Positions 1-9,145 of a stretch of 9,145 nt of DNA are shown piece after piece (position 1 is the first letter of the stretch; each line of letters starts with the position of its first letter). Position numbers and translations under genes: made by a program. The stretch comes from Vulcanimicrobiia bacterium. GTDB lineage: Bacteria; Eremiobacterota; Eremiobacteria; Baltobacterales; Baltobacteraceae. The stretch covers positions 1 through 9,145 of the forward strand of contig JAMXLG010000435.1 of the NCBI GenBank assembly GCA_024281135.1. Direction: 5' to 3'. The notes below the pieces were generated by a model. That model did not search any database and had not been told where the DNA came from. It worked only from the letters and a program-made list of their open reading frames with translations.

Positions 1-553
1 CGGCGTTGACTCTTATGTTCCTCGAACCCAACTCCTTTGCAAGCGACTTGGCAAGCGCGAGGAGTCCGGCTTTTGAGGCGGCGTAAGCGGCCTGGCCCAC
101 GTTACCGGTCAGGCCGACGATGCTCGAGACGAGGATGATCGAGCCGGCGCGCTGCTTCATCATGGGCTTGGTCACGGCACCGCAGAGATAAAACGCCGAC
201 TTCAAGTTGACGTCGAGCATCTTGTCGATGACTTCGGGCTTCAGGCGGAGCAGCAGCGAATCGATCGATTGGCCGGCATTGCCGATTGCGTAGTCGACGC
301 GGCCGAATCGTTCGAGTGTTTCGCTTACGACGGCTTCCATCGCGGCTTGATCGGCAACGTCGGCAAGAATGACGTGCGCATCGGCTCCGGGACGTTCGCC
401 GGCGCATAGCTGCGCCGTTTCATCGAGGGCCGCGCGATCGCGGCCGACGAGCACAACGTCCGCACCGTACTTGCACAACTCCGTGGCAATCGCGCGTCCT
501 ATGCCGCGGCTTGCGCCAGTGATAAGCGCAACCTTGCCGATAAAGTTGTTCAC
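1..553 (-). CDS. fabG: 3-oxoacyl-ACP reductase FabG (partial, 3' end beyond the left edge)
   Basis: This short-chain dehydrogenase/reductase uses NADPH to reduce 3-oxoacyl-ACP in the first reductive step of type II fatty-acid elongation in the cytoplasm. 184 codons are visible (E. coli FabG has 244). The Rossmann motif TGASRGIG lies at residues 12-19, NAG at 92-94 (the usual NNAG reads GNAG here), and the structural Asn is N116. The catalytic Ser-Tyr-Lys are S144, Y157 and K161, each exactly six residues later than E. coli S138, Y151 and K155. The GTG start at 553-551 overlaps the fabD stop as GTGA, with GGAG 7 nt upstream, so translation is probably coupled to fabD. The C-terminal third is outside the window. 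Family assignment is secure, and its place after fabH-fabD supports the fatty-acid role over another SDR function. Confidence 0.95.
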   Translation of the reverse strand, partial: MNNFIGKVALITGASRGIGRAIATELCKYGADVVLVGRDRAALDETAQLCAGERPGADAHVILADVADQAAMEAVVSETLERFGRVDYAIGNAGQSIDSLLLRLKPEVIDKMLDVNLKSAFYLCGAVTKPMMKQRAGSIILVSSIVGLTGNVGQAAYAASKAGLLALAKSLAKELGSRNIRVNA

Positions 554-1494
554 GCAGTCACTCCCGTGAGCGTCGCGCGCAATTTTTCAACGCCGGCGTA
601 GTCGCTGACGATCGTCGCCTTCGGCGCACTCTCCAAGCGGCGCATCAACGGTGCAAGCACGCCGCTCGCCCCAAACTCCACGACAACATCGACGCCGTAT
701 CCGGCGATCGCAACCGCGGTATCGTGCCAGCGCACTTCGTTGGTGATCGAAAGCACGAGATTCTTTTTGATCGTTTCGATATCGCGATACGGCTTCGCAT
801 CGACGTTTGAAATGACGTCAAAACGCGGCATCGAGAAGTTAGCCGCGTTCACCGCGTTTGCGAAACGCTCGAGCGCCGGTTCCATCAAGGCCGAATGCCA
901 TGCGCCCGACACATTGAGCGGCACGACACGCTTTGCGCCCGCCGCGAGCATCGCATCGCCTGCGGCTTGTACGCCGCTCAAATCGCCGCTGATGACGATC
1001 TGCGTCGGCGAGTTGAAATTCGCTAGCTGGACGCGTTTACCGGTGGCGTTGCGCGTCTCGTCGACGACGCGGCGAATTGCATCGGCTTCCAGTCCGAGCA
1101 CCGCCGACATACCGCCCGGCGCAAGCTCCGCAGCATATTGCATCGCCTTGCCGCGCTCGTCGACGATGCTCAGCGCATCTTCGAACGAGAGCGATCCCGC
1201 AATGTAAAGACTGCAGAATTCGCCGAACGAATGTCCCGCGCTCACAATCGGCGAGAACTCATTCCCGACGGCAGCGTAGAGCGCAACGTTCGTTACGAAA
1301 ATCGCCGGCTGGCTGTACTGCGTCTCACGCAGCTTTTCTTCCGGTCCGACTCTCTGCAGCTGCAGCAAATCGTATCCGAGAATCTTGTTCGCGCGCTCGA
1401 ACAGATCGCGCGATGCATCGGAGCGTGCTGCGACGTCGACGCCCATCCCGAGCGTCTGCGAACCTTGGCCGGGAAACACCGCTGCTGTCTTCAC
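550..1494 (-). CDS. fabD: Malonyl-CoA:ACP transacylase FabD
   Basis: FabD transfers malonyl from CoA to acyl carrier protein, supplying the extender for FabH and the later condensing enzymes. With the GTG start at 1494 it is 314 aa, close to the family norm. It shows the N-terminal FPGQGSQ motif (residues 7-13), the nucleophile elbow GHSFG with S89, the CoA-carboxylate-binding Arg in ERGKAMQ (R114), and the GAWHS motif with H200. These match E. coli S92, R117 and H201. The segment usually reading Q-L-x-x-P-V before the RW pair reads S-I-T-N-E-V here, so the conserved Gln and Pro are missing. Several starts are possible in frame: 1521, an ATG at 1506, GTG at 1500 and GTG at 1494. I chose 1494 because it makes a GTGA overlap with the fabH stop, the same arrangement as fabD/fabG, and gives the normal N-terminal length. 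The ATG at 1506 is a realistic alternative. Confidence 0.95.
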   Translation of the reverse strand: MKTAAVFPGQGSQTLGMGVDVAARSDASRDLFERANKILGYDLLQLQRVGPEEKLRETQYSQPAIFVTNVALYAAVGNEFSPIVSAGHSFGEFCSLYIAGSLSFEDALSIVDERGKAMQYAAELAPGGMSAVLGLEADAIRRVVDETRNATGKRVQLANFNSPTQIVISGDLSGVQAAGDAMLAAGAKRVVPLNVSGAWHSALMEPALERFANAVNAANFSMPRFDVISNVDAKPYRDIETIKKNLVLSITNEVRWHDTAVAIAGYGVDVVVEFGASGVLAPLMRRLESAPKATIVSDYAGVEKLRATLTGVTA

Positions 1495-2471
1495 TGCCAC
1501 TTCCATACCACGGCGCCCCACGATAGGCCGCCGCCAAAACCAACGAAAACGATATTGTCCCCGGGCTTCACGCGGCCGTCGGCGACCGCTTCGGAGAGCG
1601 CGATCGGAACCGAAGCAGCAGACGTGTTGCCATACTCCTCAATGTTGATGACGCATTTTTCCGGCGGCATGTTGAGATATTTCATCGCCGCATCGATGAT
1701 GCGTTTGTTTGCCTGATGCGGAATCAGCACGTTCACATCGGCCTTCGTCAACCCAGCTTTCGCAAGCGCCGCGTCAGTCGCTTCGATCATTTTGGTGACG
1801 GCGAATTTGAAGACTTCGCGGCCTTCCATGTGAATGAAGTTGTCCTTGTGTTCGAGCGCTGCGTCGTCGATCGGATGACGCGATCCGCCCGCCTCGACGA
1901 GCAGGAGCTCCGGCTTGCTGCCGTCTGCGCCCAACTCGGATGCAAGGAACGAATCTTCTTTCGAGGCTTCGAGCACAACCGCGCCCGCGCCGTCGCCGAA
2001 GAGAATCGCTGTACTGCGATCTTCCTGATTGATGATCTTCGAAAGCGTCTCGGCACCGATCAACAGGATGCGCTTATAGACACCGGATCGTATCATCGAC
2101 GATGCGACGGTGAGTCCGTAAATAAAACCGCTACACGCGATTTCCAAATCAAATGCAGCTTTGTTCGGTGCGCCTAGTTTCGAGGCGACGATACACGCCG
2201 TCGCCGGAAACAAATAGTCGGGATAGACCGTGCAAACGATGAAGGCGTCGATGTCGGTCGCTTCGAGCTTCGCATCCGCTAGCGCCTTACGCGCAGCGAC
2301 CAATGCCAAATCGCTGGTCGCCTCGTTTTCCGAAGCCCAGTGCCGGCGTTTCATTCCGGTGCGGGTCGTGATCCATTCGTCCGACGTGTCGAACCACTTC
2401 TCGAGCTCGAAGTTGTCGATGACGCGCTCGGGTACGTAATGCCCGAGGCCGACGATCTTTACCCCGGTCAA
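1491..2471 (-). CDS. fabH: 3-oxoacyl-ACP synthase III (KAS III) FabH
   Basis: FabH condenses an acyl-CoA primer with malonyl-ACP and so starts fatty-acid synthesis. Its primer preference helps set straight- versus branched-chain products. The protein is 326 aa, a normal length for the family. The Cys-His-Asn triad is complete: C113 in IACSGF, H252 in PHQANKR and N282 in GNTSAAS. The GDGAGAV loop is at 159-165, and the glycine-rich FGGGLSWGA motif is near the C-terminus. The start is TTG at 2471. It is the only start giving the usual N-terminus (KIVGLGHYVPE), because an in-frame stop, the TAA of rpmF, lies only two codons upstream. No clear Shine-Dalgarno precedes it, so ribosomes may reinitiate after rpmF. 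The stop overlaps the fabD start by 4 nt. Confidence 0.96.
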   Translation of the reverse strand: MTGVKIVGLGHYVPERVIDNFELEKWFDTSDEWITTRTGMKRRHWASENEATSDLALVAARKALADAKLEATDIDAFIVCTVYPDYLFPATACIVASKLGAPNKAAFDLEIACSGFIYGLTVASSMIRSGVYKRILLIGAETLSKIINQEDRSTAILFGDGAGAVVLEASKEDSFLASELGADGSKPELLLVEAGGSRHPIDDAALEHKDNFIHMEGREVFKFAVTKMIEATDAALAKAGLTKADVNVLIPHQANKRIIDAAMKYLNMPPEKCVINIEEYGNTSAASVPIALSEAVADGRVKPGDNIVFVGFGGGLSWGAVVWKWQ

Positions 2472-2474
2472 GGG

Positions 2475-2681
2475 TTAGTCGTGATCGTGACCGGCGTGTT
2501 CGTCGCGGATCTCGACGACCTGACGGCCATCATACGTGCCGCAATGTCCGCACACGAAATGCGGGCGCTTCGGCTGGTGACACTGGGGGCACTCAACGGT
2601 TGTAACCGCGTTGAGCTTCCAGTTCGCCGCACGACGGCTGCGCGTTTTACTGCGCGGCGTCTTCCACTTGAGGTTTGCCAT
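2475..2681 (-). CDS. rpmF: 50S ribosomal protein L32 (zinc-ribbon form)
   Basis: L32 is a small protein of the large ribosomal subunit. The product is 68 aa from the ATG at 2681. The N-terminus is typical of the family (MANLKWKTPRSKTRSRRA). Two CxxC pairs, CPQC at 31-34 and CGHC at 44-47, form the zinc ribbon of the C+ form, unlike E. coli L32, which lacks cysteines. The C-terminus carries an acidic, His-containing tail (EHAGHDHD). A longer reading frame continues upstream to 2762, but family alignment supports the ATG at 2681. The first 35 nt overlap the end of yceD in another frame, and the stop is 3 nt from the fabH start. The yceD-rpmF pairing is a classic arrangement and confirms the call. 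Confidence 0.95.
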   Translation of the reverse strand: MANLKWKTPRSKTRSRRAANWKLNAVTTVECPQCHQPKRPHFVCGHCGTYDGRQVVEIRDEHAGHDHD

Positions 2682-3150
2682 GATTCTCCGTATCGGTTTC
2701 GCACGAGCACTGGCTCGTATTCTTATTCGCTCCGCAGATGCCGCACAAGCCTTTGCAGTCATCGCTGCAGCGCAAGCCCATAGGCATCACGCTCAGCACT
2801 AACTGCTGCGCCAGATCGGCCAGGTCCAGACGGTTGCCCATCAGGACGTTGCTCTCACCGAACGGATCGTTTTCACGATCGGCGTGCGGGTCGAGCCGCT
2901 CGTCGACGTCGACGTGTATGTGCCGGTCAACGTCTTCCAAGCACGAATCGCATACGCCCTTGGCATCCGCATCGACAGTCCCTTCAATATGAAGGAGACG
3001 ATCGACATAGCGCAACTCCATATGTACCGCCGCCGGGTTCGGAAACGCTGTTCCCTCGAAGTCCTCGATGGGCACCTGGTCGTCGACCAGCATGATCTGC
3101 CGGCCGCCGCCGAGCAGCCCACTGATATCGACCTTATGCGAACGGTTCAT
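2647..3150 (-). CDS. yceD: YceD/DUF177 family protein
   Basis: This is a DUF177 protein, the family of E. coli YceD and of plant proteins linked to 23S rRNA accumulation. It is nearly always encoded just before rpmF, as here. From the ATG at 3150 it is 167 aa (E. coli YceD is about 173). The N-terminus KVDISGLLGG is typical. Cysteines occur as CDSC (67-70) and as the C-terminal cluster with C128, C132, C136, C139, C148 and C150 (the LCGICGANKN segment followed by CSC), so metal binding is likely. A longer frame reaches a GTG at 3204, but that would begin inside the leader hairpin, a few nt after the predicted transcription start. No clear Shine-Dalgarno precedes the ATG. It is the first gene of the yceD-rpmF-fabHDG operon. 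The molecular role is inferred from the family only. Confidence 0.88.
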   Translation of the reverse strand: MNRSHKVDISGLLGGGRQIMLVDDQVPIEDFEGTAFPNPAAVHMELRYVDRLLHIEGTVDADAKGVCDSCLEDVDRHIHVDVDERLDPHADRENDPFGESNVLMGNRLDLADLAQQLVLSVMPMGLRCSDDCKGLCGICGANKNTSQCSCETDTENHGKPQVEDAAQ

Positions 3151-3170
3151 AAACGTATGCAAGTCGCAGG

Positions 3171-3204
3171 ATGGGGGCCCCACCAGGAACGGCGGGACCC
3201 CCAC
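3171..3204 (-). promoter_or_regulatory. GC-rich hairpin in the 5' leader of the yceD-rpmF-fab operon
   Basis: On the minus-strand transcript the arms GTGGGGGTCCC and GGGGCCCCCAT can form an 11-bp stem with two G-U pairs and a 12-nt loop. It begins about 5 nt after the expected transcription start and ends 20 nt before the yceD ATG. There is no U-tract after it, so it is not an intrinsic terminator. It may stabilise the mRNA 5' end or bind a regulator. The structure is read by eye and its function is unknown. Confidence 0.55.
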
Positions 3205-3215
3205 ACGACTGAAAG

Positions 3216-3244
3216 ATTGTAGAACCCACCCCCCGTCTTGTCAA
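3216..3244 (-). promoter_or_regulatory. Near-consensus sigma-70 promoter for the yceD-rpmF-fabHDG operon
   Basis: Reading leftward, a perfect -35 TTGACA (3244-3239) is followed after exactly 17 bp by a -10 TACAAT (3221-3216), which matches consensus at 5 of 6 positions. Transcription should start near 3209 and give a leader of about 59 nt before yceD. A promoter this strong suits an operon for a ribosomal protein and housekeeping lipid synthesis. Its -35 lies only about 30 bp from the divergent lytic transglycosylase gene, so the two units share a very short control region. Confidence 0.85.
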
Positions 3245-3274
3245 ACCTCTTAATGTGGGGGATGGCTCTGCACC

Positions 3275-3886
3275 ATGAATGTGAGCTTCGCCCCTCAGAT
3301 CGAAGCGGCTGCCAGGCGCTACGGCCTCGACCCCCGCTTACTCGCCGCCGTCGCCGCTCAGGAAACCGGAGGGCCGGGCAGCAACAGCGGCCGGAACGTC
3401 GTCGGCGACGGTGGGCATGGGCACGGCCTCTTCCAGATCGACGATCGCTACCACGCCTTCGCCCGCACAGCCCAAGCCATGGATCCGGCTTCAAACGCCG
3501 ACTACGCGGCCGGCATGATCGCCGACAACCTGAAGCGGTACGGCAGCGTTCGAGCCGCGCTTTCCGCTTATAACGCCGGCGATCCGAACGCTACCGGCAC
3601 AAAGACGGAGTGGGGCGACGGCAAGATCCTCGGCTATGCCGACTCCGTGATGCGTCACTACCAGCAAATCTGCGGCGAAGCGCGAGCCGACCAACCGGAC
3701 GCTTCTTCCAACACGAACGCGCTGTTCAACGCGCTAATGTCGATGACCGCCGCAAATCCGACTTGTCAACTTCCGACGACGCAACCGCTGACCGCATCGT
3801 CGTGGGCGCAGACGCGCGGCCTAGATTCGACGGGACACGCGCGTGATAAGAGTAGCGACTTCAGCATCATCGGAGGAGACGACTAA
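3275..3886 (+). CDS. SLT-type lytic transglycosylase, no signal peptide
   Basis: This is a soluble lytic transglycosylase (goose-lysozyme-like SLT fold) of 203 aa, predicted to cleave the MurNAc-GlcNAc bond of peptidoglycan. The catalytic Glu is E30 in AAQETGG. The GHGLFQID motif is at 49-56, AYNAG at 98-102, and a GYADSVMRHY segment at 120-129 closes the domain. The last 70 residues are Ser/Thr/Asn-rich and look disordered. There is no N-terminal signal peptide or lipobox, because the SLT domain starts almost at residue 5. That is the layout of phage virion or secretion-system-associated enzymes, not of housekeeping Slt/Mlt proteins. A GGGGGA stretch 12 nt upstream is a poor ribosome site. 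The stop overlaps the next start by 1 nt (TAATG), so the two genes are surely co-transcribed. Confidence 0.88.
   Translation: MNVSFAPQIEAAARRYGLDPRLLAAVAAQETGGPGSNSGRNVVGDGGHGHGLFQIDDRYHAFARTAQAMDPASNADYAAGMIADNLKRYGSVRAALSAYNAGDPNATGTKTEWGDGKILGYADSVMRHYQQICGEARADQPDASSNTNALFNALMSMTAANPTCQLPTTQPLTASSWAQTRGLDSTGHARDKSSDFSIIGGDD
3872..3878 (+). promoter_or_regulatory. Strong Shine-Dalgarno for the 3886 gene
   Basis: GGAGGAG lies 7 nt before the ATG at 3886, inside the end of the transglycosylase gene. It fixes the start of the small downstream gene and suggests that gene is translated at least as strongly as the enzyme. Confidence 0.8.
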
Positions 3887-4212
3887 TGGGATTCCTTGCA
3901 CCGATTCTGGAGGCCGCTGCGCCTTCGATCGTCGGCGGACTTGTCGGAGGCGGCGCAAACGCGATTCTCGGCGGATCGAACGGCGTGCTAAGCGGTGCGC
4001 TCGGCGCGAACAACGCATTCAACACCGGCCTGCAGATCCAAACGATGGTTGCACAGGATCAACTCGATTTACAGTCGACGATCTTCGACGAAGCCATGAA
4101 CCAGCAAGCAGAAAATATGCGCGAGATCAACACGCTCAACGATGTCGCGATGCAACAACGCAAAGCCGACGACGGCATCACCAAGAAGTTCATCCAATCA
4201 ATAACAGAATGA
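3886..4212 (+). CDS. Small protein with Gly-rich hydrophobic N-terminus and shared C-terminal coiled module
   Basis: I do not recognise this 108-aa protein. Residues 1-41 are hydrophobic and very rich in Gly/Ala (IVGGLVGGGANAILGG), enough to insert into or perturb a membrane but lacking a cleavable signal. Residues 43-108 are polar, Gln-rich and likely helical or coiled-coil. Residues 59-106 align without gaps to residues 31-78 of the protein at 4791-5027 with 21 of 48 identities, including LDLQ, MQQ and the KK-x-I near the end. It is translationally coupled to the transglycosylase, so it probably acts with it. The pairing recalls phage ejection proteins, or small secreted parts of an envelope-spanning secretion system. 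Both are inferences without a family match. Confidence 0.8.
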   Translation: MGFLAPILEAAAPSIVGGLVGGGANAILGGSNGVLSGALGANNAFNTGLQIQTMVAQDQLDLQSTIFDEAMNQQAENMREINTLNDVAMQQRKADDGITKKFIQSITE

Positions 4213-4221
4213 TTGCCTCCT

Positions 4222-4695
4222 TCAGTATGAGCGAGACGTGGTCTCCGGGACCATGAACGTCACCGTCTGCCTGCACTGCGCGCATCCAGCGAATACGTGG
4301 TGGTTAGCGTCGACCAACTCGACAAGCATCTTGTGCTGACCGGGCGGCAAACCCGCCACGCTGATTGTATTGTTGTCACTGTCTTCCACAAAACCCCAAG
4401 GCACGTCGTCGATGTGTACGTGCAGATGCCCCACTCGTGGAGACACGTTGAGCGCGCCAGTCCCAAACACCGGTACGATATGCACGTTCTCCGCACGATA
4501 TTGGATCCAGACGATGCCCCGAGCCAGTCCTGCGGCAAGCGGCGTCGGGTCCACAGTGAGTTTGGGTGGGGGCTCGTTCTTGATGGCGACGTACGGTGAG
4601 GCGCCGCCGACCTTCGTAGTGCTCTGGGCGATGGCGCTCGTGGCAAGCACGGTACCAGCCGCAACTGCGGCAAGCGTTTGGATAAGTATGTTCAT
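4222..4695 (-). CDS. Exported DUF6130-like protein
   Basis: This is a 157-aa secreted or periplasmic protein. The N-terminal signal peptide (residues 1 to about 24, with cleavage near AIAQ/S) has a hydrophobic core AAVAAGTVLATSAIA. The mature part contains the GHLHVHIDD segment (89-97), PW at 99-100, and a NNTISVAGLPPGQHKMLVELVDA stretch (split by a turn at PPG), all of which resemble my recollection of DUF6130. The family's function is unknown, and the His-rich HLHVHIDD patch could bind metal. A CAQC pair sits at 138-141, where I do not expect one. The ATG at 4695 is preferred over the in-frame GTG at 4707 because a GAGTGAGA purine stretch precedes it. The gene is convergent with the 3886 gene (9 nt apart) and separates the two paralogous small genes. 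Confidence 0.8.
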   Translation of the reverse strand: MNILIQTLAAVAAGTVLATSAIAQSTTKVGGASPYVAIKNEPPPKLTVDPTPLAAGLARGIVWIQYRAENVHIVPVFGTGALNVSPRVGHLHVHIDDVPWGFVEDSDNNTISVAGLPPGQHKMLVELVDANHHVFAGCAQCRQTVTFMVPETTSRSY

Positions 4696-4790
4696 TTGTG
4701 TTCTCACTCTTTGATCACCAAAGCGTAGGCGATCGCGACACTAAAGGATAGGAACCTCTTGTATACAGACCATATCGATGTGCTCACACA

Positions 4791-5027
4791 ATGATTGCGC
4801 CCCTCACTGCTGCGACGCCTCGGCCAAAGGCGCCGCAGGGGAAAGCGGCTGACGATCCCGAGGTCAAGGCGCGGCAAGACGCACTCGATCTTCAGCAAGC
4901 GCTCTTCAACATCGAAATGGCCGAGGAAGCCGAACTCGAGCGCGAGCGGGAAGCCCTCGAAGCCCTCACGATGCAGCAGCTCAAGAACGAAGACGCCATC
5001 ATGAAAAAGTGGATCGAGATGATATAG
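4791..5027 (+). CDS. Small paralogue sharing the C-terminal module of the 3886 product
   Basis: This is an unrecognised 78-aa protein. Residues 1-30 are Pro/Ala/Lys-rich and probably unstructured. Residues 31-78 are a charged Glu/Gln/Met-rich helix that aligns ungapped with residues 59-106 of the protein at 3886-4212 (21 of 48 identical). The identities include LDLQ at 32-35, MQQ at 61-63 and KK at 72-73. Because only the C-terminal half is shared, the module is probably the functional part: an interaction, assembly or export signal. Coding is supported by this homology and by G/C-rich third positions like those of its neighbours. No Shine-Dalgarno precedes the ATG, and the start is the least certain part of the call. 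Confidence 0.72.
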   Translation: MIAPLTAATPRPKAPQGKAADDPEVKARQDALDLQQALFNIEMAEEAELEREREALEALTMQQLKNEDAIMKKWIEMI

Positions 5028-5065
5028 AGCAGAGGAGCGACCTGCGCCGCCCCTCTTGTGTTGCA

Positions 5066-5074
5066 TGATATACT
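5066..5074 (+). promoter_or_regulatory. Extended -10 promoter for tRNA-Ile
   Basis: TGATATACT is an extended -10 element (TG, one base, TATACT). There is no recognisable -35 at 17 bp, which is usual for extended -10 promoters. Initiation near 5081 would give a leader of about 25 nt before the mature tRNA. Confidence 0.55.
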
Positions 5075-5086
5075 CTGTACTTGTCT

Positions 5087-5102
5087 GGACTCAAGCGAGT
5101 CC
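5087..5102 (+). other. Hairpin in the pre-tRNA leader
   Basis: GGACTC and GAGTCC form a perfect 6-bp stem around an AAGC tetraloop, ending 4 nt before the mature tRNA 5' end. It may help present the RNase P cleavage site. It lacks a T-tract, so it is not a convincing terminator. Confidence 0.45.
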
Positions 5103-5106
5103 GCGC

Positions 5107-5183
5107 GGGCCATTAGCTCAGCTGGTTAGAGCGCATGCTTGATAAGCATGAGGTCCCTGGTTCGATCCCAGGATGGCCCACCA
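5107..5183 (+). tRNA. tRNA-Ile (anticodon GAT)
   Basis: This is a complete 77-nt cloverleaf. The acceptor stem GGGCCAT pairs with ATGGCCC, the D-arm GCTC pairs with GAGC, and the anticodon stem CATGC pairs with GCATG around the loop TTGATAA, giving anticodon GAT at 5141-5143. The T-arm CCTGG pairs with CCAGG around TTCGATC. The discriminator is A, and CCA is encoded at 5181-5183. It decodes AUC and AUU. It has its own promoter and terminator and no rRNA is nearby, although tRNA-Ile(GAT) is often found in the 16S-23S spacer. It forms the left boundary of the accessory region and is a plausible integration site. Confidence 0.98.
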
Positions 5184-5196
5184 TCGAAAACGTCGA

Positions 5197-5223
5197 GAAA
5201 ACCCTGATTCTATCGGGGTTTTC
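5197..5223 (+). terminator. Intrinsic terminator of tRNA-Ile
   Basis: A 12-bp stem (GAAAACCCTGAT with ATCGGGGTTTTC, one G-U pair) closes on a 3-nt TCT loop. The T-run formed by the 3' arm is followed by TTCGTTT. It lies 13 nt after the tRNA CCA. The A-rich 5' arm means it could also work in reverse. Confidence 0.85.
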
Positions 5224-5230
5224 TTCGTTT

Positions 5231-5313
5231 ATGGCGTAGTGCAAAATGAGGTCGCCGGAGGTCGCCAAATGGCGTAGTTAATCACCCTCCGTGGCGTAAA
5301 GATTCCGTAGTAA
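5231..5313 (+). repeat. Cluster of short direct repeats beside the tRNA
   Basis: ATGGCGTAGT occurs exactly at 5231-5240 and 5269-5278. Related copies are GTGGCGTAAA at 5291-5300 and TCCGTAGTAAA at 5303-5313. Between the first two, GAGGTCGCC is repeated at 5248-5256 and 5258-5266, a 10-bp period of one helical turn. The region is otherwise non-coding. Such directly repeated short sites beside a tRNA resemble arm-type sites for an integrase or excisionase. That reading is inference, since no tyrosine integrase gene is in the window. Confidence 0.5.
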
Positions 5314-5378
5314 ATCGCCCAGCGGCGGCCGCGCGACTAACCAAGTGGTCGGGGCTACCCTAAGCGCGAAGGGCGACG

Positions 5379-6093
5379 ATGGTTGAAGACTCGTCACCGC
5401 TGGGCACTCGGAAGCTCGTCCTTGACCGGTGGAAACGCTCTCTTACGGGCGGCATTATTACTGCCATCCTAGCACTGATAAGCGCCGTGCCGCTGATTGC
5501 CAGTGGCATTGCAGCGTTAAGGGGCATGCAATTCTCGCCTTGGTGGAGTATTGGCACGGGCGTCTTCACGGTGGTGTGGATGCTCTCCACGATTCCAATT
5601 GCCGCCGTTCAGGTTGCACACCAGGAGCGCGCATCACGAATAGCTCTCGAAGATCAAGGTCAGCCGAAGCTGCGGGTTCACATCGAAAAACTCGTCGCTA
5701 CTGTCAAGAACAACACCATCCCTAAGGACTCGTACTTGATGGCGTTAATTTCGGTGCGGAACGATGGATATGAGAGTGTGACGCGCAAATGGCAAATGCT
5801 ATGCGGCGCTGATAACCATGAACGCGGCGTGACCAACATCACCCTCACGGGGAAACAGCTTGTATCGTCGTTCTCCCATTTGGGCGGGGAGAAAAGACTA
5901 TTACGCAGATGCTGACATTTCACAGTCCGCACAGCATGTAATAACCAAAGGCCAAACCCCTGAATGGGTGTTCGTTGGTCAATTACCCTATAATGACGTG
6001 ACGGTTTCTGATCTGAAAACGATCAAGATTCTCTGCGAAGACTTCCAGGGCACCCTTACAAGGCCACGCCTAACGAGGGAAACATTGACCTAG
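5379..6093 (+). pseudogene. Two-TM membrane protein, frameshifted in an A4 run
   Basis: The first frame (5379-5915) encodes 178 residues. Two transmembrane helices lie at about 23-47 and 55-78, followed by a soluble beta-like domain beginning LRVHIEK and including ALISVRNDG. That frame ends in an uncharacteristic tail (RLLRRC). The next frame carries the natural continuation, DYYADADISQ through VTVSDLKTIKILCEDFQG, and stops at 6093. Removing one A from the AAAA at 5892-5895 joins them into a single 237-aa protein reading GGEK-DYYADAD. Either the gene is broken by a 1-nt insertion or this is a homopolymer sequencing error. I do not recognise the family. Two N-terminal helices plus an external domain are common among accessory genes. 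The ATG at 5379 has a weak AAGG upstream. Confidence 0.7.
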
Positions 6094-6143
6094 GCGAGGT
6101 CATGCTCGGTTCAAAGTGAGATGAACGAAAAGTTCGCCCTGGT

Positions 6144-6158
6144 CCTCCGATGCGGAGG
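6144..6158 (+). other. Small perfect hairpin in the 6094-6323 gap
   Basis: CCTCCG and CGGAGG form a 6-bp stem with an ATG loop. There is no T-tract, so termination is doubtful. The rest of this 230-bp gap shows no coding sequence I can support. A weak TTGGCC/CATAAA pair 18 bp apart could be a promoter for the 6324 gene, but it is below what I would call. Confidence 0.3.
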
Positions 6159-6323
6159 CCGGGAAGCGTGTTTCTAATTCGGTGTGATCGTTATGCTCGC
6201 AGTGCGACCGGCAGCGCCGTCAAATTCGACGTTCGTTCTTGTTTTCAGCTTGGCCACGATGGTGCAGCGAGCGCATAAACGAACGCCTCGCATAGCGAAG
6301 AGCGTATAGAGGAGATCGAGAGC

Positions 6324-6638
6324 ATGGCTAAACCGCGCAAGCCGTCCGAACCGGAACCTCGCATAACGATCTTTAGCGGCACGGGGACTGGCAAGAGTAC
6401 CGCCTTTCTCCTTCTGGACGCGGAGACCAGAAGAAAACTGTTGGGTGAGGAAGCGGTGGTCGGCGAGGGTCGCACGATGCAGGCCTTGCAAACTGCCGAC
6501 GCTTCTGCCGTTATCGCATTTCAGCCCGTTAAAGAAACCACTGCCGAGGCGAAAAAGTTCAAAGACAACCTCGACCAAACGCTTGCGGTGTCCGCTGCAC
6601 GTCTCGGTGGCGGGGAATCGCCGCGCCCGGTGGAGTAA
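6324..6638 (+). CDS. Hypothetical protein with a near-Walker-A sequence
   Basis: This 104-aa protein is of unrecognised family. The start is well set: GAGGAG at 6309-6314 lies 9 nt before the ATG. After a Pro/Glu/Arg-rich start, residues 14-27 read ITIFSGTGTGKSTA, a beta strand running into a glycine loop with GKST. It lacks the first Gly of the canonical GxxxxGK[ST], and there is no visible Walker B or enough length for a P-loop NTPase domain. It is therefore probably a look-alike or a fragment. The middle and C-terminal parts (AEAKKFKDNLDQTL) look helical. It ends 12 nt before the DUF4760-like gene, so the two are likely co-transcribed. Confidence 0.65.
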   Translation: MAKPRKPSEPEPRITIFSGTGTGKSTAFLLLDAETRRKLLGEEAVVGEGRTMQALQTADASAVIAFQPVKETTAEAKKFKDNLDQTLAVSAARLGGGESPRPVE

Positions 6639-6650
6639 AGGCCGGGAACA

Positions 6651-7148
6651 GTGTACTGGAACGCACTCGCAGCGATTAGTGCCGCTGTTTCAACGATGGT
6701 ACTTACCATCGGCGGCGTTGTCGCTATTTATCAATTACGCGAGGGGCGTCGCACGGCACAATTCGACGCAACGCAACGCATGGTCGAAAATTTGCTCGAT
6801 CGCGAGTTCAACAATGCGCTGCGCTACGTCATTGACGACTTGCCGAATCGATTGAAGGATGAAAAGTACCGGGCAGAGCTCTCGTCGTCGCACGACTGGG
6901 ACATCGACCCCGACCGCCACCCGGAGATCACCGTCTTAGCGCGACTCGAAGAGATTGGAATCTACCTACGTCACCGATTGCTCGCTGCCGACGCGATGCT
7001 TGATTTCAACGCTGCGCTGATCTTGCAAAGTTGGGAGAATCTTACCGAAGTCGTGACGTTGATGCGAAAATCGCAGCGCAATCCGAACGTCTGGAGCGGT
7101 GCCGAGTTACTCTACGGACGCGCAAAGCAACATATCCCAAAACGTTAA
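6651..7148 (+). CDS. DUF4760-like membrane protein
   Basis: This 165-aa protein starts at GTG 6651. One N-terminal transmembrane helix (about 5-28, WNALAAISAAVSTMVLTIGG) is followed by IYQLREGRRTAQFDATQRM and a helical cytoplasmic domain. That domain contains LARLEEIGIYLRHRLL (97-111), ALILQSWENLTEVVTLMRK (122-140) and NVWSGAELL (146-154). This pattern of a TM anchor, an R-rich linker, then helices with a conserved W and a final W-x-x-x-E-x-L matches my recollection of DUF4760 proteins. Their function is not established and they are often found in accessory regions. It follows the 6324 gene after 12 nt. The start codon is the most likely one because it includes the whole TM segment. Confidence 0.72.
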   Translation: MYWNALAAISAAVSTMVLTIGGVVAIYQLREGRRTAQFDATQRMVENLLDREFNNALRYVIDDLPNRLKDEKYRAELSSSHDWDIDPDRHPEITVLARLEEIGIYLRHRLLAADAMLDFNAALILQSWENLTEVVTLMRKSQRNPNVWSGAELLYGRAKQHIPKR

Positions 7149-7179
7149 TCACTTGGACACAGGCGGCGCGGTGCGTTAG

Positions 7180-7392
7180 GCGACTTGGAAGAGGTTCCAG
7201 CCGTTCTCGACGGCCAGTTGTGCTGCGCGAATCGTTGCAAGGTGTCATGCGAAAGACAATCGGCGACCTACCATCGAAGAGATCGAAGTGGCGCTAGAGG
7301 TTAGCGCTGAGGGGAAGGTTGGAATATTCGGCACCGGATTAACTGCTGCAGGTAAGAGCAGCATCACCGTTCGGTTCAAGCGACAATCGTGA
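7180..7392 (+). pseudogene. Remnant resembling a Trypco1/CU044_2847-type domain
   Basis: One frame is open from just after a TAG at 7177 to the TGA at 7390-7392 (70 codons), and it contains no ATG, GTG or TTG in the first 35 codons. Its second half reads RPTIEEIEVALEVSAEGKVG, then a glycine/alanine segment, then SITVRFKRQS. This resembles the end of the trypsin-co-occurring Trypco1/CU044_2847 domain: an EIEVxxxxxxSAEG strand pair, then a final basic beta strand. In the neighbouring frame, directly after the stop of the 6651 gene, LGDLEEVPAVLDGQL could be the displaced N-terminal part. I read it as a truncated or frameshifted relic. The family call is from memory and tentative. Confidence 0.42.
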
Positions 7393-7580
7393 CAATCTCT
7401 TCGATTAAGTGGCGAGCAGCCTACGCAGTTCGCGCGCTAGTGCTACGTCGGTGTCGCCGGCTCTTGCGCTGTTACTGTCGCCTTCTCTGGCTCCGAACCT
7501 ATATAAGCTGCTCCGATCATTCGCATCCTAAATATGATAACTACGACAACTATGAACTGCCAGAGGAATGACTATCTTCC

Positions 7581-7711
7581 CGTGAGGAGTTCCGCGAAGG
7601 ACGCAGCTACAACCGCTCCGACGGGGCTACGAGACTCGCCGTCAGTGGAAATGGACCGCTGTTCAAGTCTCGCGCGTGCTGCAACGTATCGGAGTCGACG
7701 TAGCAGCGTAA
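7581..7711 (+). pseudogene. Remnant resembling a recombinase C-terminal segment
   Basis: The segment 7625-7711 reads GYETRRQWKWTAVQVSRVLQ followed by RIGVDVAA and a stop. It closely resembles the LNxxGYRTRRGGxWxxxxVxRxLxR motif of the recombinase domain in serine recombinases and resolvases. In the preceding sequence another frame (7581-7617) reads REEFREGRSYNR, which fits the REGxSYxxIA part expected just upstream. The two frames differ, a TGA lies at 7569, and the IAxxLN link is missing. It therefore looks like a decayed 3' end, not a gene. It supports a mobile origin for the region. The 7393-7580 stretch before it holds no coding sequence I can support. Confidence 0.42.
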
Positions 7712-7783
7712 CAATCACGCGTCCTAAGCATGAGGCCCCGGCAGTGCGCCCTCCGATTCGTACTGTTTCTCTTTGATGCGCGA

Positions 7784-8959
7784 TCAGGTTTTGATGATGA
7801 GCTCGATCACGTTACCGTTCGATGCGAGCCACAACTGCGCGTTTCCACATCCGGGCGATGTAAACGGCCCGGTGATTTGAACCGGCGTCGTGTTTCCCGC
7901 CGGCAATGTATACTCGGTGATCGTGCCCATCGTTGTAATGCGGCCAACTTTGCCCGCGCCGTTTTCCGTAAACCATAAAGCGCCGTCTCCGCCGACGGTG
8001 ATGTCGAGCGGTTTCGCACCCGCCGTCGGTACCGAGAAGGTTTTTAACGCGCCGCCGGTTGTGACACGTCCCACCAAATTGTCCGTCGCATCCGTAAACC
8101 ACAGGGCGTTATCGGGACCGGTTACTTCGGCATCAATTTCCGAGAGCGGCTTGGAGAGCACGACCGATCCGAGAAATTGCTGCGAAGTCGAGTACCGGTA
8201 GAAGCCCTTAACGCTGGCGCCGTTGATACTCCCGCCGGCCCACAGGTCTTTATCGGGGCCGACGCCTACCGCGGTCAAGAAATCGTTGACTTGCGGCGTG
8301 GTTGTGAAGGTCAACGCATCGGTAAGTTCGTTCACGTCACCAATCCCGCCCGCTTCCTGCATGCCTTGCGGTGCACCCGGCTGCGTTAGAAACCAAACGT
8401 TACCGTCCGGCCCCGTAGCAATGAACGGTGTAGCAACAAGGCTTAGTATCGGTAACGGGAACGGGGGGCCGGCAGGTGGGCTCGTAACGGAGACACCTGC
8501 AGCCGCTGCGACAATCTCAAGAACTCCGAAACCGTGCACCGGGTCGGTGCCGTCGAATGTTCCCCACGCGAAGCCATTCGGTGTCGCCGTCATCGAGCGA
8601 TCAGGCATCGCGCCGTAAATGTTCCCACCGGTGACGGACGCCGTTTGCACCGAGAAACCGGTGGAAAGTCGCACCATCTGTCCCAGCACGACGTTAAGGG
8701 GTGATGACCACCAGATCGAGCCATCTTTCGTGACCGTCACGCCGCCCGACGACGGCAACCCGGCGACGGATATTTGCACCATCGTAACTGCGGGCGCGTT
8801 ACCAAATCCGTTGACGATGACTTGCTTCGTCGAAACGATTTGCGACGGTTGCGTGGGCAAGACGGATTTGGCGTTTCCTAAACTCCCGCCTCCACTCGAG
8901 CCGCCGCATGCCGAAAGCACCAGTGCCAAAACCGCCGCAACCGAATTGCGTATTCTCAT
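7784..8959 (-). CDS. Vgb/NHL-like beta-propeller lipoprotein
   Basis: This 391-aa envelope lipoprotein has a signal peptide with a lipobox ending LSAC, so lipidation is predicted at C18. A Gly/Ser linker (CGGSSGGGS) follows. The mature part carries propeller-blade repeats: GPDGNVWFLT (183-192), GPDKDLW (234-240), GPDNALWFTD (281-290) and GGDGALWFTE (323-332). The last two are each followed by VGRVTTGG- or VGRITTMG-type strands, as in virginiamycin B lyase (Vgb) and streptogramin lyase-like proteins. I see no His/Glu/His catalytic set, and the protein is longer than true Vgb, so a binding or structural role is more likely than antibiotic lysis. The ATG at 8959 has GGGGGA 7 nt upstream and starts exactly at the signal peptide. 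The longer frame to 9022 would bury it. It is not co-directional with the island genes. Confidence 0.85.
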   Translation of the reverse strand: MRIRNSVAAVLALVLSACGGSSGGGSLGNAKSVLPTQPSQIVSTKQVIVNGFGNAPAVTMVQISVAGLPSSGGVTVTKDGSIWWSSPLNVVLGQMVRLSTGFSVQTASVTGGNIYGAMPDRSMTATPNGFAWGTFDGTDPVHGFGVLEIVAAAAGVSVTSPPAGPPFPLPILSLVATPFIATGPDGNVWFLTQPGAPQGMQEAGGIGDVNELTDALTFTTTPQVNDFLTAVGVGPDKDLWAGGSINGASVKGFYRYSTSQQFLGSVVLSKPLSEIDAEVTGPDNALWFTDATDNLVGRVTTGGALKTFSVPTAGAKPLDITVGGDGALWFTENGAGKVGRITTMGTITEYTLPAGNTTPVQITGPFTSPGCGNAQLWLASNGNVIELIIKT

Positions 8960-9045
8960 GCGAGCATCCCCCGCCGCGTCTCGCAACGTTATCAGCGTAG
9001 CGCCGCGCAACACGCGACACAAGTGGAGCCTAGGGATTGCTCTTT

Positions 9046-9069
9046 GGACGGCCGTGCATGGAGCCGTCC
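9046..9069. repeat. Inverted repeat upstream of the propeller lipoprotein
   Basis: GGACGGC and GCCGTCC are perfect 7-bp arms around a 10-bp spacer, 87 bp upstream of the lipoprotein start. It could be an operator or a hairpin. No T-run follows on either strand. The rest of 8960-9145 shows no gene and no convincing promoter: TTGTGT, 17 bp, TACGCT is the best but poor. Confidence 0.4.
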
Positions 9070-9145
9070 GACGCTTCGTAGGAAGCCTGAAGCTCGAACA
9101 TGCAGGCGCGTACTACGAGCAAATAGGCTCGCAAACAACGCGAAA

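Follow-up and report, generated by a model that had tools for sequence, protein, structure and literature searches.

Comparative analysis of a gene pair in Eremiobacterota and its possible link to a non-flagellar type III export machine

The described systems nearest in concept to the one considered here are the non-flagellar type III secretion systems (T3SS) of the Myxococcales, the 'Myxo' group (PMC3459982; PMC12403147). The present subject is an operon on a stretch of 9,145 nucleotides from a Vulcanimicrobiia bacterium (NCBI GenBank assembly GCA_024281135.1, contig JAMXLG010000435.1, positions 1 to 9,145 of the forward strand; the whole stretch is hereafter the window). The operon encodes a lytic transglycosylase (SLT) and two small proteins (GLY and PRO), and comparison of genomes tentatively links this pair with a non-flagellar FlhA-type export cluster of relatives (hereafter, the machine), which is encoded elsewhere in Eremiobacterota genomes. 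A study of Myxococcus xanthus is said to have used the term 'needleless T3SS*'. The Myxo systems and the Eremiobacterota machine have in common an export apparatus derived from the flagellum, a cluster in which no needle subunit or secretin is recognised (no search aimed at secretins was made in the Eremiobacterota) and the absence of any sign of a motility organelle. In the available part of PMC3459982 the Myxo systems are described as being without FlgBC and FliE, whereas the Eremiobacterota cluster carries FlgB-, FlgC-, FliE- and FlgG-like rod genes. Seen only on the Eremiobacterota side of this comparison are a FliG_M match on the C-terminus of FliF, metF inside the cluster, secDF after it, and the distant GLY-PRO pair.

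The rod and needle subunits of T3SS offer a second comparison. GLY and PRO resemble SctF and SctI in being two small helical proteins (approximately 80 and 105 amino acids) with related C-termini and no Sec signal, but they have no Pfam or NCBIfam match over cut-off and, in AlphaFold2 models of low to moderate confidence, each appears as one long helix rather than a hairpin. SLT is comparable to IagB and FlgJ, its best NCBIfam matches, in which an SLT or muramidase domain serves an export machine. In contrast to these, SLT scores far below the equivalog cut-offs, lacks a Sec signal and is encoded away from the machine, which has an SLT of its own. It also differs from Sec-exported transglycosylases of the IagB and VirB1 type in lacking a hydrophobic N-terminal stretch (by hydropathy in 11 SLTs, and by eye in 38 loci and the window, where the N-termini look soluble). 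With the transglycosylase of PRD1-type tectiviruses it has the SLT fold in common, and the viral_contigs set holds no relative of GLY. The genes and their common module are placed in the window as follows; the three labels are our own, and the names GLY, PRO and module come from no database.

3275..3886, + strand: SLT, lytic transglycosylase of 203 amino acids with a Pro-containing and then acidic tail and no signal peptide (PF01464)
3884..3888, + strand: overlap of the SLT stop and the GLY start, TAATG (from the sequence)
3886..4212, + strand: GLY, 108 amino acids, a Gly-rich N-terminus followed by one long helix; no known family
4054..4203, + strand: module in GLY, residues 57-106 (alignment and profiles)
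4791..5027, + strand: PRO, 78 amino acids, a non-helical Pro/Ala-rich N-terminus followed by one helix; no known family
4875..5024, + strand: module in PRO, residues 29-78 (alignment and profiles)

GLY and PRO are best read, from their sequences, as a paralogous pair of helical proteins with a common C-terminal helix. The alignment noticed in the initial, sequence-only reading of the window is reproduced: residues 59-106 of GLY match residues 31-78 of PRO gap-free with 21/48 identities, and the unlike N-termini, Gly-rich and hydrophobic in GLY and Pro/Ala-rich in PRO, show no alignment. BLASTP returns the pair with 23/50 identities (E 4e-7), and the local score of 102 was reached by none of 2000 shuffles at each of three shuffle scales (maxima 76, 61 and 56). 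Comparison of the two families profile to profile gives 96.8% probability (E 2.1e-10 over 52 columns). Neither protein has a convincing match in Pfam, NCBIfam or PHROGs, and PADLOC returned nothing for them. The AlphaFold2 models, which serve as hints on secondary structure only, place helices at residues 5-22 and 30-107 of GLY (mean pLDDT, the predicted local confidence, 64.6; pTM, the predicted template modelling score, 0.23) and at residues 23-77 of PRO (mean pLDDT 77.5).

The common C-terminus was considered as a general signal for export. Of 25 genomes searched with a combined module profile, 24 gave two strong matches, GLY and PRO, and the damaged G025 gave one (genomes, loci and alignments are cited by our handles G, L and A), all other matches in the 25 genomes being weak (the best 2.6e-4 over 15 residues, others above 0.01). 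With just two strong carriers in a genome, the module is no tag borne by many substrates, and this reading is rejected. No signal emerged for the module in a hydrophobic-moment test. Thirteen genomes on deep branches (G040-G046, G048-G053) each show a single module protein; since early-branching genomes hold only one, PRO looks like a later arrival, formed by duplication of a GLY-like gene and acquisition of a new N-terminus.

The window belongs, judging by its relatives, to Candidatus Eremiobacterota, in which SLT, GLY and PRO (the trio) form a conserved operon that is divergent from the yceD-fab genes. Among 42 loci with a GLY relative in genome_contigs, all of whose named hosts are Eremiobacterota, SLT is found in 38 and the YceD gene adjoins the operon in 37. 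PRO lies directly 3' of GLY in 36, and in 31 of these the two genes overlap by 4 bp; of the six loci with no adjoining PRO, L009 and L011 are contig ends and L038, L040, L041 and L042 have a damaged GLY. SLT itself matches PF01464 with 44 bits (cut-off 21.3), its match to NF011856 (IagB-like) is weak (31.9 of 208 bits), and its PHROG match is a transglycosylase. Glu30, which we take to be the catalytic residue, is invariant in an alignment of 11 SLTs (A6). That the enzyme is signal-less, and that it is translationally coupled to GLY, was suggested at the outset. The first holds, in that the highest 19-residue Kyte-Doolittle mean within the first 45 residues of the A6 proteins is 1.44, below 1.6, and the TAATG overlap fits the second. 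As a partner of the module genes, SLT is present at the 38 of 42 loci cited above and lacking at 10 of 83 trio loci. In nine of these ten genomes no trio-type SLT was found elsewhere at 1e-10, and in G057 there is one match (3.6e-11) with an in-frame stop. SLT is thus dispensable and not an essential partner, GLY and PRO being the constant pair. SLT and GLY are a single ORF (open reading frame) at 4 of 83 loci (G007, G010, G014, G116). Of the loci of the fusions (L008, L013, L023, L072), the first three have a shortened SLT tail or none.

The candidate partner of this pair was sought among export systems encoded in the same genomes. Of 25 trio genomes searched with PF00771, 23 have FHIPEP genes, and these fall into two classes scoring approximately 850 bits (flagellar FlhA) and 640 bits (non-flagellar). 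Genes of the latter class lie in conserved clusters with the order FlgB-, FlgC-, FliE-, FliF-, FliH- and FliI-like, SLT, an unknown gene, FlgG-like, and then FliM-, FliN- and FliP-like, metF, FliQ-, FliR-, FlhB- and FlhA-like, secD and secF (for example L116 2528-14814 and L122 5293-17584). Family matches were confirmed for FlgC, FliE, FliF, the ATPase, the FlgE/F/G-type protein, FliN, FliP, FliR and FlhA (in the G062 cluster and the FlhA of G071); FliP is over the TIGR01103 cut-off and FlhA reaches 590 of 772 bits. The FlgB-like protein has no family match and takes its label from position and similarity to its counterparts. FliP, FliQ, FliR, FlhB and FlhA occur together with the ATPase and a FliF-type ring, the set that marks a type III export apparatus. 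No hook or filament genes were recognised in the clusters read, in which no search aimed at hook or flagellin was made. A single FHIPEP match, of the non-flagellar class, is present in 34 of 69 machine-bearing genomes by hand count; as about half of these have only the non-flagellar gene, the partner is not the true flagellum. The SLT of the machine likewise seems to have no signal peptide, so that export of such an enzyme by the machine would have precedent. Insertions of several to approximately 10 kb or more are seen inside the cluster at L121, L216 (G103), L119 (G122) and L228/L234 (G123), and G122 contains both trio and machine genes.

Across 149 genomes of the phylum, co-occurrence of GLY and FHIPEP is weak evidence alone because drafts often break at the trio, and the sites of losses were therefore read. 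The 83 trio genomes were sorted by the state of the machine into 69 in which it is present, 8 in which it is lost or damaged, and 6 of unknown state outside the 69-versus-8 count (G019, G066, G074, G083, G097, G098). Presence means that an FlhA-type gene was found or the cluster read; 60 of the 69 clusters were read at least partly, and the call was made by the FlhA-type gene alone in G007, G011, G012, G015, G078, G099, G101, G106 and G119. The machine is lost or decayed at the metF-secDF site in G023, G025, G108, G110 and G117, and is damaged in G072 (FlgG and FlhB split) and G103 (FliF split, FliQ cut). It is also counted as damaged in G118, whose whole draft yields no more of FliP than its final 39 residues, on a contig that lacks all the upstream genes; in the sister genome G120 the machine is complete.

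Contig ends aside, none of the 69 machine-bearing genomes has a broken trio ORF, SLT being cleanly absent in ten. Within this set, contig ends remove or truncate PRO in G008, G058 and G119, and the GLY of G102, missed by the profile search, is shown by tblastn. Four of the eight genomes with a lost or damaged machine have a broken trio ORF, and in three of the eight the break affects GLY or PRO. GLY is truncated in G023, where PRO lies 6.7 kb off, and in G025, where PRO is gone; G072 has a truncated SLT, no GLY and only the tail of PRO; and in G108 a stop interrupts SLT, GLY and PRO both being whole. The trio is whole in G117, G118 and G103. In G110 the ORFs are whole and Leu is replaced by Pro at GLY position 84, where Leu is invariant in alignments A1, A4 and A8. 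Rare substitutions are also seen in G021 and others that have the machine. Fisher tests, which treat genomes as independent and ignore relatedness, give 5.2e-5 for trio ORFs (4/8 versus 0/69) and 7.7e-4 for GLY and PRO alone (3/8 versus 0/69). When only genomes with the FlhA-type gene gone or broken are counted as lost, the values are 5.4e-4 (3/5 versus 1/72) and, for GLY and PRO alone, 0.01 (2/5 versus 1/72).

In a MetF and SecD tree of 45 genomes, G108 (with G109), G110, G117, G023, G025, G072 and G118 fall on separate branches; G103 is outside this tree. The nearest relative of G025, G018, retains both systems. The GLY lesion of G025 is shared by G074, whose machine was not found, and in G109 the machine is lost and the trio was not found. 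Nonsynonymous (dN) and synonymous (dS) divergence was calculated for the G108-G113 group (for GLY, G108-G110, dN 0.028 and dS 1.09), and is uninformative on selection after loss because those losses fall on different branches. Taken as comparative data, these patterns argue with moderate strength for a coupling of GLY and PRO to the machine.

Several observations weigh against such a coupling. GLY and PRO are whole in five of the eight genomes (G108, G110, G117, G118, G103), so that the association is suggestive and not strict. In G108 the damage to SLT amounts to one in-frame stop, possibly an assembly error, and SLT is likewise missing from ten genomes that have the machine. The assignment of G072, G103 and G118 to the damaged class is based on drafts prone to false frameshifts, which do occur, as secD (G102) and secF (G114) are split too. 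If G005, with one split FlgG and an intact trio, is counted as damaged, the comparison becomes 4/9 versus 0/68 (9.3e-5). The trio adjoins machine genes in no locus read. At the deep-branch loci (four read, three of them in full), no SLT or PRO adjoins the module gene. Finally, for the genome of the window itself we infer the machine from its relatives.

On balance, the explanation that we favour, tentatively and at somewhat less than even odds, is that GLY and PRO work with this type III export machine, which derives from the flagellum and has its genes elsewhere in the genome. They would be best read as late parts of it, forming a tube or tip. Under this proposal, the unlike N-termini would act as export signals and both proteins would be exported by the machine; the common C-terminal helix could then pack them into one assembly, conceivably a tube, tip or pore, situated at or beyond the FlgB/FlgC/FlgG-like rod. 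SLT might go out with GLY and PRO and open the peptidoglycan, helping the structure through the wall, and in the early branches a lone GLY-like protein would do the job. The sequence-only reading had envisaged an assembly or export signal of an undescribed system that crosses the cell wall or ejects. The comparative data point moderately to an export machine that crosses the envelope, and do not bear out a general export signal, SLT as an essential partner, or ejection.

The pair could instead serve the same machine from inside the cell, acting on SLT or other substrates as a chaperone or a regulator of export, without being exported. The coupling data do not distinguish a place inside from one outside, a pair of small helical proteins that dimerise through a common helix would be in keeping with chaperones, and the SLT-GLY fusions fit tethered cargo. 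We nevertheless hold this to be unlikely, as GLY and PRO persist at the 10 loci without SLT, and the Gly-rich hydrophobic end of GLY and the non-helical end of PRO look more like those of exported or membrane-active proteins. About equally improbable is that damage to the trio and loss of the machine coincide by chance or through general genome decay in a few lineages, with the role of the trio lying elsewhere. Just eight genomes are involved, from drafts with false frameshifts, and most of them keep GLY and PRO whole. Against this stand the 4/8 versus 0/69 distribution of broken ORFs and the state of the surrounding genes: yceD, fabH and fabD remain in the four genomes with trio lesions, as does metF at the machine site and, where the contig reaches it, secD.

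A stand-alone cassette for wall remodelling or lysis, in which a holin-like GLY releases SLT, PRO regulates and there is no tie to the machine, seems less probable still. It would account for a signal-less SLT adjoining a Gly-rich hydrophobic protein, for the fusions of the two, and for the survival of the GLY and PRO ORFs in the five genomes named above despite loss or damage of the machine. However, a 19-residue Kyte-Doolittle mean of 1.6 is reached by only 14 of 76 GLY proteins (1.58 in that of the window), and the early-branching form at L095 peaks at 0.76. No part is missing more often than SLT, the supposed cargo, and broken ORFs were seen only in genomes whose machine is damaged or, in G074, was not found. 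A domesticated phage module for ejection, with SLT and a helical tube or pilot protein, is very improbable: the best phage matches of SLT are indeed tectivirus transglycosylases (approximately 33-37% identity over 110-130 residues) and the short helix and one long helix of GLY recall tube-forming pilot proteins, but viral contigs hold no relative of GLY, PHROGs yield nothing solid for GLY or PRO, the named hosts are all Eremiobacterota, the Pfam scan shows no phage family among neighbouring products, and the same yceD-fab site is occupied across most of the lineage, as in vertical descent.

A T3SS needle identity was also considered and rejected for the pair, since PF09392 is over its cut-off in none of 25 trio genomes, the single sub-threshold match (11.3 bits) being distant from the trio. 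In a second machine cluster of G021 (L060 1939-2698), a small Gly-rich protein with a helical-looking tail and a 124-amino acid protein adjoin the rod genes. The weak matches of the Gly-rich gene (1939-2316) include GLY loci, but as a homologue of GLY it was rejected: 582 of 2000 local shuffles score equally high, hhalign gives 15.6%, and only the architecture is common to both.

A further possibility, which we regard as doubtful, is that the machine is an undescribed offshoot of the flagellum, motor-less and filament-less and ending at the rod, in a widespread diderm soil lineage, and that GLY and PRO are its independently evolved end pieces, analogues of needle or tip whose genes lie far from its own, beside that of a wall-cutting enzyme. 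Searches of the open-access literature yielded no account of a type III machine in Eremiobacterota. The route by which flagella gave rise to injection machines is a long-standing question, and the extant intermediates named in the available text of PMC3459982 are the Myxococcales systems, without the FlgBC and FliE rod genes. A machine that keeps rod genes, with no hook or filament gene seen in its cluster and with a candidate new pair of end pieces, would be a second kind of intermediate. It would also be testable in a cultured species, as the first member brought into culture, Vulcanimicrobium alpinus, is reported in the accessible part of PMC9758169 to be diderm and without flagella or a flagellin gene.

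GLY was found in 97 of the 149 genomes examined across the phylum, and searches at E ≤ 0.01 returned 183 relatives of GLY; close relatives of PRO number 15. The weakest GLY match is that of G033 (1.8e-4), the rest of whose group is without GLY. Contigs of drafts break off time and again (L149-L152, L154-L156) at the trio, within it or at the adjoining yceD, which makes a call of absence there unreliable. In the window, one further gene lies within the operon:

4222..4707, - strand: DUF6130 gene between GLY and PRO (PF19625, 117 bits)

As PRO usually follows GLY directly in relatives, this gene is an interruption of the operon and outside the system; a gap between GLY and PRO is also present in G115 and G054. 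Downstream, a tRNA-Ile(GAT) lies approximately 80 bp after PRO (5107-5183, + strand). It is followed by an ORF of 178 amino acids and an overlapping ORF in another frame, which together resemble one split gene (5379-6093, + strand). On the opposite strand, positions 7784-9022 encode a protein with a lipoprotein-like start and a match to the Vgb (virginiamycin-B-lyase-type) propeller (PF24684, 108 bits).

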